64,000 nucleotides of DNA from Rhodospirillaceae bacterium. Its GTDB lineage: Bacteria > Pseudomonadota > Alphaproteobacteria > Reyranellales > Reyranellaceae. Of this stretch, positions 37,715 through 57,578 are shown in pieces. The position numbers and the translations under genes are program-made. The stretch is from NCBI GenBank assembly GCA_009772935.1, contig WOUR01000023.1, positions 62,001-126,000 of the forward strand, in the 5' to 3' direction. The number at the start of each line of letters is the position of its first letter. Position 1 is the first letter of the stretch. Below the pieces are notes generated by a model. It had not been told where the DNA came from. It was given only the letters and a program-made list of their open reading frames with translations, and made no database searches.

Positions 37715-37736
37715 TTGACGTTTACGTAAAGGTCAA
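37715..37736. promoter_or_regulatory. Probable MerR (LiuR-like) operator of the Atu-like operon
   Basis: A 22-bp inverted repeat: left arm TTGACGTTTAC, right arm GTAAAGGTCAA (one mismatch to a perfect palindrome). It lies 38 bp upstream of the SDR start and 40 bp upstream of the divergent SCP2 gene. The same palindrome without mismatch stands in front of the MerR gene at 57594. A MerR protein would bind across a promoter spacer here. Confidence 0.75.
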
Positions 37737-37776
37737 GTAATCCCCCAAGGCCACTGCCGACGGGAGGAATTCGCTC

Positions 37777-38073
37777 ATGACCTTGCAGGAAATCACCGAG
37801 AAAATGAAGGAAGGCGCGTCGAAGAAGACGGCCTTCGGAAACAGCGTCAAGTTCGCCACGGATCAGGGCGTCGTCCATATCGACGGCCACCAGACCCCGC
37901 CGGCCGTCACCAACGACGACACCGCCGCCGACTGCACCATCAAGATGGACTTCAGCGACTTCGCCGACCTGATCGGTGGCAAGCTCGACGGCATGACCGC
38001 TTTCATGACCGGCAAGCTCAAGATCGAAGGCGACATGGGCGTCGCCATGAAGCTGCAGTCGATCTTGCGTTAA
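37777..38073 (+). CDS. SCP2 sterol-binding domain protein
   Basis: A 98-aa protein comprising one SCP2 domain: LQEITEKMKEG at the start, the ADCTIKMDFSDFADLIGG core and GKLKIEGDMGVAMKLQSI at the end. SCP2 folds bind fatty acyl-CoAs or other lipids in a hydrophobic tunnel. GGGAGG lies 10 bp before the ATG. It is divergent from the Atu-like operon across the MerR operator, so it may be in the same regulon as a lipid or acyl carrier. It ends in a strong terminator. Confidence 0.9.
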   Translation: MTLQEITEKMKEGASKKTAFGNSVKFATDQGVVHIDGHQTPPAVTNDDTAADCTIKMDFSDFADLIGGKLDGMTAFMTGKLKIEGDMGVAMKLQSILR

Positions 38074-38140
38074 GCGCTCCGCGCTTGACGCCGGTGGGCG
38101 ACGGTGCGTTCAGACGCGCGAAAGCCCACACGGTAGTAAC

Positions 38141-38168
38141 AAGGGGCCCCTCGTCGGGGCCCTTTTTT
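38141..38168 (+). terminator. Rho-independent terminator after the SCP2 gene
   Basis: A 10-bp stem (AAGGGGCCCC with GGGGCCCTTT, one G-U) around the loop TCGTC is followed directly by a run of Ts. Only the plus strand has the T-run, so it ends the SCP2 transcript. The T-run overlaps the stop codon of the convergent CGNR gene. Confidence 0.9.
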
Positions 38169-38700
38169 ATGCCTGCCTGCTCTTGTGGTAGTGCCGCCTG
38201 GCCTTGGCGCGATTGCCGCAGGACGACATGGTGCACCAGCGGCGCTTGCCGGCCCGGCTCTCGTCGAGAAACAGGTACAGGCACTCGGGGTTGGCGCAGC
38301 GCCGTACCTTGCCGAGGCTCGCGCTCGCGAGCAGGTCTCCCGCCGACCACAGGACGGGGGCGAGAAGGGCCAGCGCCGTGCCCGACCTCATGTCGAGTTC
38401 CCAGTCGAACGCCTCGCTGCCGCGCTTCAGCGTCTGACGCGCCGGTGCCGCCGCGAGGGCCGCATTCAGCCCCTCGAAATCGCGGGTCGCAGGTGCCTTG
38501 CCCTGGGCCACGGCGTCGAACAGCCGATGGAGGGTCTCGCGCAGCTCCAGCGCGCGCTGGAATTCCTTCTGGGAGGGCGGCTTCGGCGCCTTGGCCCAGG
38601 CCGCCAGGTCCGCCGGCGTGTTCAGCGTCTCCGTCGGCGTGTCCTGTCCCCGCCAGTAACGCGTGTTGGCGTATTCGAGACAGAGGTCGGGCCGATTCAT
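38167..38700 (-). CDS. ABATE/CGNR zinc-finger protein, putative transcription regulator
   Basis: A 177-aa protein. N-terminal ABATE-type helical domain (~1-125) and a C-terminal CGNR zinc finger: Cys135, Cys140, Cys156 and C161GNR164, followed by a basic tail (AKARRHYHK). CGNR proteins are predicted DNA-binding regulators, often next to a small-molecule enzyme. The first operator AACCGGTT is 15 bp upstream of its start, and a divergent VOC enzyme gene has another, so it probably controls both itself and the VOC gene. Confidence 0.88.
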   Translation of the reverse strand: MNRPDLCLEYANTRYWRGQDTPTETLNTPADLAAWAKAPKPPSQKEFQRALELRETLHRLFDAVAQGKAPATRDFEGLNAALAAAPARQTLKRGSEAFDWELDMRSGTALALLAPVLWSAGDLLASASLGKVRRCANPECLYLFLDESRAGKRRWCTMSSCGNRAKARRHYHKSRQA

Positions 38701-38714
38701 CGACGGGACTTACT

Positions 38715-55616: not shown

Positions 55617-55620
55617 GGTG

Positions 55621-56145
55621 TCAACCGATGCGCTTCAGGTTCGCCTTGTAGTTCTGGCCGCGCTTCACGTAGCTCTCCGCGCTCATCGCCAGCCGCGAGG
55701 CGTTCTCCTCGCTCAACTCGCGCACCACCTTGGCCGGCGAGCCGAGAATCATCGAGCGGTCGGGGAAGGTCTTGCCCTCGGTCACGACCGAGCCGGCGCC
55801 GACCAGGCAGTCCTTGCCGATCACCGAGCGGTTGAGCACGACAGACTGGATGCCGATCAGCGAGCCGTCGCCGATCGTGCAGCCGTGCAGCATGACCTGA
55901 TGACCGACCGTCACGTTGCGGCCGATCGTGAGCGGCGCGCCGGGGTCGGTGTGCAGGACGCTCAGCTCCTGGACGTTGCTGTCGTCGCCGATGACGATCG
56001 GCTCGTTGTCGCCGCGTAGGACGGCGCCGAACCAGATGTTCACCCGCTCGCCCAGGATCACCGACCCGATGATCGTGACACCCTCCGCGATGTAGCAGGA
56101 CGCCGGAATCACCGGCACGCGGTCGTTCAGCTGGTAGATCGGCAT
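55621..56145 (-). CDS. Gamma-carbonic anhydrase family protein
   Basis: A 174-aa left-handed beta-helix protein of hexapeptide repeats. The zinc ligands of CamH-like proteins are in place: His65, His82 and His87 (VLHTDPGAP, TVGHQVMLHG), and RGDN at 44-47 is typical. Many members are active carbonic anhydrases; others are CoA-binding transferases. The start is the ATG at 56145 (MPIYQL); a longer frame from 56193 is less likely. Heads the four-gene minus operon. Confidence 0.88.
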   Translation of the reverse strand: MPIYQLNDRVPVIPASCYIAEGVTIIGSVILGERVNIWFGAVLRGDNEPIVIGDDSNVQELSVLHTDPGAPLTIGRNVTVGHQVMLHGCTIGDGSLIGIQSVVLNRSVIGKDCLVGAGSVVTEGKTFPDRSMILGSPAKVVRELSEENASRLAMSAESYVKRGQNYKANLKRIG

Positions 56146-56332
56146 CTGGGTTCCCTCTGCCTGCGTAAATGGTGTGATTGTGCCGTCCGGCATGCCAGCT
56201 TGACTTGGCTAATTCAATAGCGGCGGCATTGCCGATAGTAAGACATGTTCCGCAGTCGGGGGCGGTCGACACACGCGAGGTGATATCCCGGTTGCCGACC
56301 GCGTGCCGCCATGCAACCGTTCCAACGTGTCA

Positions 56333-57526
56333 ATGACCGTGTCCATCTGGCGTACCCTTCGGGTCATCGTTCTTCTGGCGTCCGCAACATTGGCGATTTC
56401 CATTCACGATGTACGGGCCGACGCGAACGACGACCTGCGGAAGCGCACGCTACAGCGGGCACCGCAGCTGGCAGGACTTTTGGACAGGGCTCTCGCCGGA
56501 AGCTCCGAGGCGCAGTCATCACTTGGATTTCAGCTGCTTGAGGGATTCTACGGCCGGGACGTCGGTCTAGCCGTCGAGTGGCTGGAAAAGGCCGCCCGCG
56601 GTGGTAGCCGCCATGCCGCGTACAGTCTTGGCCTTCTATTTCAGTTTGGCACCATGATCGGTGCGCCTGCCAACGTAGTGCCGAAGGATACCGCCAGAGC
56701 AATCCACTGGTTCGGGAAGTCCTACGAGTTGGGCGATATGTGTGGTGCCAAGAGGCTTGGTGGTATCGCGCGGGATGGAAAGCCGCCCGACAACCGTCAG
56801 GCCATCGAGTGGTTCGAGGAATGTGCGAAAGGCGGGGAGCGCTCCTGCCAAGAGGACTTGGCCTACTACTACCTAAATGGAACTCTGATTCCGAGGGATT
56901 ACAGGCGTTCGTTGCACTGGATGCTTGAAGCCCTGAAGTCGCCGGATGATCGCGGCTACCCTCTACGGGTGGCAGCGTTGCAAGCCCATGCAGGCCTGCA
57001 ATTCGAGAATGGCTTGGGGACATCCAGGAACATCGCCGAAGCGATGAAATGGTACGAGCTCGCCGCCGACGGCGGCGACAATTACGCATTGTTTGCGCTC
57101 GGGCGATTGTACGGGGAGGGCATCGACGTGCCCCGGGAGGATGCCCTTGCCATACGGTTGCTTAGCAAGGCGGCCCAGGCTGGATATCAGCCCGCTCAAT
57201 ACCGCCTCGCGTTGGCGTATCTGCATGGGAAGGGCATACCTCGTGATCGGACGCAGGCCCTGAAGTGGCTGATTCTCGCGACCGTCGGCCCAGAGGTGGA
57301 TTCAAACTGGGCAGACGAGTTCTACAGAGAGAATCCCCACCTGTTCGGTCTTTTGTCCTTGCGGCTGGATCCCATCATGCGAGTCGTGGCCGGACAGCAA
57401 TTGGTAAATCTGAGGAGCGAATTGGAGCCGCAGGAGGTGCGGGCGGCCCAGCGGCTTGTGGCGGAATTTGTACCGACGGAGGGGCCAGTGCCGCCGTCGC
57501 CGTATTCGCCGCAACCTAGGTGTTAG
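56333..57526 (+). CDS. Sel1-repeat (TPR-like) protein with signal peptide
   Basis: A 397-aa secreted or periplasmic protein. A signal sequence of about 30 residues (SIWRTLRVIVLLASATLAIS) is followed by some five to six Sel1-like repeats with the A..WLEKAA..G...A.Y.LG..Y pattern (~70-310). Sel1 repeats are protein-interaction scaffolds often used in stress or envelope functions. Start taken as ATG 56333; a GTG at 56303 would add ten residues. Codon use is less GC-biased than that of neighbours. The MerR operator region follows directly. Confidence 0.85.
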   Translation: MTVSIWRTLRVIVLLASATLAISIHDVRADANDDLRKRTLQRAPQLAGLLDRALAGSSEAQSSLGFQLLEGFYGRDVGLAVEWLEKAARGGSRHAAYSLGLLFQFGTMIGAPANVVPKDTARAIHWFGKSYELGDMCGAKRLGGIARDGKPPDNRQAIEWFEECAKGGERSCQEDLAYYYLNGTLIPRDYRRSLHWMLEALKSPDDRGYPLRVAALQAHAGLQFENGLGTSRNIAEAMKWYELAADGGDNYALFALGRLYGEGIDVPREDALAIRLLSKAAQAGYQPAQYRLALAYLHGKGIPRDRTQALKWLILATVGPEVDSNWADEFYRENPHLFGLLSLRLDPIMRVVAGQQLVNLRSELEPQEVRAAQRLVAEFVPTEGPVPPSPYSPQPRC

Positions 57527-57534
57527 CCGATCCC

Positions 57535-57578
57535 TTTACGTTTACGTAAACCCGTATTGACGTTTACGTAAACGTCAA
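57535..57578. promoter_or_regulatory. Operator region of the MerR gene with a perfect 22-bp palindrome
   Basis: 57557-57578 is an exact palindrome with arms TTGACGTTTAC and GTAAACGTCAA. A second, partial site lies just before (57535-57550, TTTACGTTTACGTAAA). The same motif with one mismatch is upstream of the Atu-like operon (37715-37736). It starts 16 bp before the MerR start, so autoregulation is likely. Confidence 0.78.

Follow-up and report, generated by a model that had tools for sequence, protein, structure and literature searches.

The atu cluster of Pseudomonas brings together genes of an SDR oxidoreductase, the geranyl-CoA carboxylase (GCC) subunits, an acyl-CoA dehydrogenase and an enoyl-CoA hydratase; gnyRDBHAL is another name of the liuRABCDE cluster. 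AtuR, the repressor of atu in Pseudomonas, is a TetR protein acting on two 13-bp repeats (PMC9973270), and LiuR has been described as a MerR-family repressor (PMC3223726). The gnyRDBHAL cluster has been tied to isoprenoid degradation in P. aeruginosa (in a title cited in PMC5045206), and in Rhodospirillum rubrum (PMC7238569) an 'ILV box' has been placed before the merR-like gene liuR. We analysed a stretch of 64,000 nt from Rhodospirillaceae bacterium (contig WOUR01000023.1, positions 62,001 to 126,000; 'the window'), where an initial annotation had used one 22-bp palindrome to join two catabolic loci 20 kb apart into a probable MerR regulon. The joining holds, but it was incomplete, as a third member lies on another contig. 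It is likely (probability about 0.8) that the palindrome serves as operator for a LiuR-like MerR repressor controlling three units of acyl-CoA breakdown. This reading is based on the sites, their number and conservation, the promoter-like spacing, the gene identities and the enzyme type, all taken from sequence.

The sequence TTGACGTTTACGTAAACGTCAA forms an exact 22-bp palindrome at 57557-57578, ahead of the LiuR-like merR gene (57594 on), and recurs at 37715-37736 with a single mismatch, where site position 17 is changed from C to G, as the initial annotation had described for the two places. No further match with up to three mismatches was present in the window, and 100 dinucleotide shuffles of the window gave 0 palindrome matches. 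The whole genome (6,013,361 bases in 124 contigs) contains exactly three 22-bp sites at the same threshold, with 0 matches to the reversed-pattern control; the third site is C14:97583-97604, on a contig other than that of the window. The genome-wide motif scan that had been proposed therefore returned three sites, not hundreds of unrelated positions, and with a control of 0 in each genus genome as well, chance recurrence was rejected. The second site noted earlier at 57535 is not partial: 57535-57550 reads TTTACGTTTACGTAAA and agrees at every base with the 16-bp motif TTTACGTNNACGTAAA. A 16-mer match with two mismatches on contig C112 was dropped as a further site because it lies inside long open frames and the reversed 16-mer control gives six matches in the genome. 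The operators in the window are:

57557..57578, no strand: operator O1, exact 22-bp palindrome with three ACGT cores 6 bp apart; its left arm TTGACG is the putative merR -35 box
57535..57550, no strand: auxiliary operator, 16-bp motif TTTACGTTTACGTAAA without a mismatch; its first base is exactly 22 bp upstream of that of O1
37715..37736, no strand: operator O2, common to two divergent promoters, with TTGACG toward SCP2 and TTGACC toward SDR

The three ACGT cores, six bases apart, amount to two overlapping copies of the 16-bp form TTKACGTNNACGTMAA, and the recognition unit looks like this LiuR-type motif rather than the whole 22 bp. Perfect 22-bp symmetry was rejected as a conserved feature: the merR copy ends in CGTCAA in 17, CGTTAA in 14 and CGGCAA in one of 32 genus rows. 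The auxiliary copy stands about two helical turns (22 bp) from O1; it was found at exactly -22, with up to three mismatches, in 19 of the 32 rows, the window included, and the same spacing occurs in two loci (L252 and L256) from genomes of another family.

Conservation was followed in 61 genomes of the genus, the own genome included, drawn from a larger group; from the nearest named matches (L105 and L106) we infer that the genus is Reyranella. Every one of the 61 carries the site. There are three copies in 47 genomes, two in ten, one in two and four in two; seven of the twelve genomes with fewer than three copies are under 90% complete. The two genomes with four copies differ: the SCP2/SDR/GCC locus is present twice in G076, each time (L223 and L225) with the operator, and in G068 two matches overlap at one place, where a fourth ACGT-type unit lengthens the third-locus operator (L228) to 28 bp. 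Among 29 congener loci fetched for merR, 27 have the site ahead of the gene; in the remaining two, the sequence begins at the gene (L045, contig edge) or consists of N at this place (L040). For the other two classes, 20 and 19 loci were fetched, chosen by site endings among the matches listed. SCP2 and SDR genes flank the site in 20/20 loci of the second class, and an acyl-CoA dehydrogenase gene follows it in 19/19 loci of the third.

In the own genome, the third site is located upstream of an acyl-CoA dehydrogenase gene, followed by a thiolase gene and a gene for a fused hydratase/hydroxyacyl-CoA dehydrogenase (FadJ-type). An independent line for joining the split Reyranella loci comes from clusters such as L158, where merR stands together with relatives of the 595-aa dehydrogenase encoded next to merR in the window, the third-locus dehydrogenase, thiolase and FadJ; merR, dehydrogenase, thiolase and FadJ are also clustered in L131, L137, L151, L161, L165, L166 and L180. 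An M24 peptidase gene beside the third site was not counted as a target because it occurs in 4 of 19 congener loci (L208, L209, L214 and L217) and leftward TA in one of 22 rows. The leader of the third-locus dehydrogenase gene (L004:8613-8690, congeners L205-L222) has a conserved block downstream of the promoter, CTGGCG and then GGCCCA and AGTCC. We propose no RNA structure for this block, as none of the five predicted pairs has changes on both sides.

The operator arms (TTGAC) look like -35 boxes at the same time. TTGAC-N18-TA is kept at each of the three promoters; only the divergent SDR/SCP2 promoter has it on both strands. We counted TTGAC and TA in either direction, TA being scored at the -10 position that a 17-bp spacer after TTGACN defines. 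Of the 24 SCP2/SDR rows, 24 have TTGAC forward and 24 in reverse, and 24 have TA forward and 23 in reverse; the 22 third-unit rows gave 21, 0, 22 and 1 in this order. The rows of these two classes were chosen by site endings, so that their arm letters are partly a selection effect; the TA counts and the gene context are free of it. The 32 merR rows gave 32, 17, 32 and 1, respectively. Since the two-way TTGAC/TA arrangement occurs only where genes diverge, promoter direction appears readable from the site. The corresponding putative boxes in the window are:

57580..57585, plus strand: putative merR -10 box TAGCAT, 17-bp spacer from TTGACG, followed by 8 bases and then ATG; TA in 32/32 rows
37738..37743, plus strand: putative SCP2 -10 box TAATCC, 17-bp spacer; TA in 24/24 rows
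37708..37713, minus strand: putative SDR-operon -10 box TACAGG, 17-bp spacer; TA in 23/24 rows

The merR ATG follows 6 to 10 bases after the -10 hexamer in 32/32 rows, which suggests that the merR mRNA is probably leaderless.

The genes next to O2 are as follows:

37777..38073, plus strand: 98-aa SCP2 (sterol carrier protein 2) domain protein (PF02036, 71 bits)
36814..37677, minus strand: SDR oxidoreductase, first gene of the operon (NCBIfam matches below their cut-offs)
35190..36806, minus strand: GCC-type beta subunit, with Gly162 and without the insertion of methylcrotonyl-CoA carboxylase (MCC)
33892..35052, minus strand: acyl-CoA dehydrogenase
32722..33882, minus strand: acyl-CoA dehydrogenase
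31808..32626, minus strand: enoyl-CoA hydratase/isomerase
29949..31988, minus strand: biotin carboxylase alpha subunit (open frame as listed)

The true start of the alpha subunit is probably nearer 31810, as the profile match sets in at about residue 60. The carboxyltransferase encoded at 35190-36806 scores 803 bits to the beta subunit of geranyl-CoA carboxylase (5ikl_B) versus 555 to MCC beta (3u9r). According to Jurado et al., GCC beta has Gly where MCC has Phe and is without a 3-residue insertion (PMC4673880). The window protein, with AEIFVPG(162)GRGF against PDKHHFGRIF in the MCC encoded on contig C89, agrees with GCC in both respects. By sequence, the window carboxylase is of the geranyl-CoA type, and the earlier description of the operon as Atu-like is confirmed in this respect. 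The only other close beta copy in the genome, that on C89, is an MCC beta (856 bits, Phe and insertion), encoded near a dehydrogenase, a hydratase-like protein and a biotin carboxylase; no site was detected in 19 kb at this MCC (liu) operon with up to eight mismatches to the 22-mer or four to the 16-mer. Elsewhere in the window, a 1180-aa open frame (48256-51798) has no Pfam match at E 1e-8.

Downstream of O1 are the genes of the presumed repressor and of a dehydrogenase:

57594..58037, plus strand: merR, 147-aa LiuR-like MerR protein, presumed repressor (Pfam PF13411, PF09278 and PF00376 over cut-off)
58062..59849, plus strand: 595-aa acyl-CoA dehydrogenase of the 6ijc/8png/8r1e type, directly after merR

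The dehydrogenase matches structures 8r1e, 8png and 6ijc, a type that presumably goes under the names DmdC and FadE1/FadE2. No other MerR close to this protein is encoded in the genome: the next match has E 3.4e-7, and there are eight MerR_1 matches altogether. The NCBIfam search gave no family over cut-off for it, and its best solved relatives, at low score, are metal and drug MerR proteins. Metal sensing is unlikely since the single cysteine is absent in two close relatives.

Neighbouring genes served to class 90 merR relatives (the 80 best loci among those listed by a named-genome scan, plus 10 class-level loci). A 595-aa-type dehydrogenase gene directly follows merR in 42 of them, L116 among these by a 26% match only; a thiolase gene comes first in 21, MCC beta is present in the stretch in nine, other recognised genes in eight and none in ten. 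The 16-bp motif was found upstream of merR, with up to two mismatches, in 42/42 dehydrogenase-first ('fadE-linked') loci, in 8/9 MCC-linked ('liu-linked') loci, in 6/8 loci with other genes and in 3/10 with none recognised; 22 matches in 1.275 Mb outside the merR-upstream stretches give the background. The Shewanella liu-linked loci carry TTTACCTTTACGTAAA, the same 16-bp motif, and the window MerR is 44-48% identical to the proteins of three of them (L155, L170 and L171). In a tree of 93 rows and few columns, the window protein falls among fadE-linked rows (a six-row set with 99/95, starred; wider fork 89/84), and a 16-row clade apart from these (100/95, starred) takes in all nine liu-linked rows. 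The name 'LiuR-like' given in the initial annotation is apt for the MerR type and for the motif shared with Shewanella, but the protein is outside the liu-linked LiuR clade.

A search for GCC-type beta subunits (E up to 1e-190) found 18 loci in 17 of 240 class genomes; 16 loci are outside the genus. A divergent SCP2 gene is present in eight of these 16, from six families, seven of them with SDR and none recognised in L244. The divergent pairing with GCC genes suggests a lipid-carrier role of SCP2 in the pathway. Between the divergent genes, the 16-bp site was found with up to two mismatches in seven of the eight loci and with three in the eighth (L238). The MerR protein is encoded in 14 of 15 non-genus GCC genomes, and the fetched merR stretch contains the 16-bp site in 12 of the 14; one of the misses (L259) is cut 77 bases upstream. 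The merR and GCC genes are on one contig, about 11 to 27 kb apart, in five genomes (G038, G102, G228, G254 and G199), so that the ~20-kb pairing seen in the window is recurrent.

Under the proposed mechanism, in which MerR binding, repression, operon extent and effector are what we infer, a MerR dimer on the operator would cover the -35 box and the spacer of promoters of the ordinary sigma70 type, and two dimers would probably bind at merR, on O1 and on the auxiliary site 22 bp away. Kept off in this way would be merR and its acyl-CoA dehydrogenase gene, SCP2 and the divergent SDR/GCC (Atu-like) operon, and the dehydrogenase/thiolase/FadJ-type cluster; the repressor would hold down its own level. 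Release may be caused by an acyl-CoA intermediate of the breakdown of isoprenoid or other methyl-branched acids, and gamma-carboxylation and beta-oxidation would then be induced together.

The shared motif and the identity to the Shewanella proteins would also fit a plain LiuR, whose regulon is branched-chain amino acid degradation and whose carboxylase is MCC. This explanation is improbable given the GCC-type carboxylase of the window, the MCC operon without a site and the position of MerR outside the clade of nine liu-linked rows, although support for the fork that joins it to fadE-linked rows (89/84) does not reach the starred level. Slightly less probable again is activation in the classic manner, where the protein sits between the -35 and -10 boxes and untwists a long spacer, thus switching genes on. 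Such is the habit of characterised family members, with spacers of 19-20 bp (PMC5045206). The 17-bp spacer after TTGACN, kept at all three promoters, fits steric repression and not the spacer of MerR activators; TTGAC-N18-TA, an ordinary promoter spacing, fits a repressor on normal promoters, and LiuR itself is described as a repressor. A LysR gene located nearby (59816-60763) brings up binding of the palindrome by another regulator, and a general promoter or mobile element might be considered as well; with the motif in front of merR in all the fadE-linked loci and only three copies in the own genome, we give very little credit to these explanations.

Several observations weigh against repression of the three units by this MerR, besides the selection of rows by site endings. 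The thiolase-first merR class has the motif, at up to two mismatches, in only 6/21 loci. The other eight of the 16 non-genus GCC loci, including that of the same-family genome G246, have no site in the 1,500 bases read on each side, G199 has none at merR or at the GCC gene in the stretches read, and the site of L158 is weak (two mismatches, 178 nt upstream). Within the genus, whose rows are not independent, 14 of 61 genomes lack exactly three matches, and five of the twelve with fewer than three are not under 90% complete (G022, with two copies, is 100% complete). The auxiliary site is recognisable at -22 in only those 19 of 32 rows, the putative -10 boxes are weak apart from TA, and GCC and MCC are not told apart by the alpha subunit, the hydratase or the dehydrogenases that the window operon encodes.

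The system resembles LiuR of Shewanella and other proteobacteria in the MerR type, the 16-bp motif, the acyl-CoA catabolic targets and the site before its own gene. In contrast, liu-linked LiuR adjoins ivd/mcc, whereas here the liu operon is without a site, the MerR belongs to a separate clade and the targets are the GCC operon, SCP2 and fad-type genes. The grouping of SDR, GCC subunits, acyl-CoA dehydrogenase and enoyl-CoA hydratase genes is that of the Pseudomonas atu cluster, but a MerR protein appears to take the role that TetR-type AtuR has there; the 13-bp AtuR repeats have 2 matches in the window at up to two mismatches versus 2.22 expected, i.e. chance level. A related MerR, the 595-aa dehydrogenase, thiolase, FadJ and the upstream motif are shared with alphaproteobacterial merR-fadE-thiolase-fadJ clusters (L158 with an added dehydrogenase); unlike these, the Reyranella cluster is split over two loci, with the GCC operon under the same site.

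Somewhat better than even, in our estimate, are the chances of a wider proposal: that a LiuR-like but distinct MerR subfamily runs isoprenoid (GCC) catabolism with SCP2 and fadE-type beta-oxidation in several alphaproteobacterial families, replacing TetR-type AtuR, the operator arms being -35 boxes whose letters (TTGAC or not) show the strand of the repressed promoter. LiuR and its regulon are already known, and part of the present regulon picture may be known too; the literature search, made on extracts and with Kazakov 2009 and RegPrecise outside the survey, gave no account of LiuR-type control of a GCC operon. With its three promoters, the proposed regulon is a compact system whose overlapping operator and promoter letters would be readable from sequence. 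Control here would be set apart from that of leucine breakdown despite near-twin enzymes, and the arrangement offers a testable wiring for switching on the breakdown of methyl-branched, terpenoid-type acids in alphaproteobacteria.

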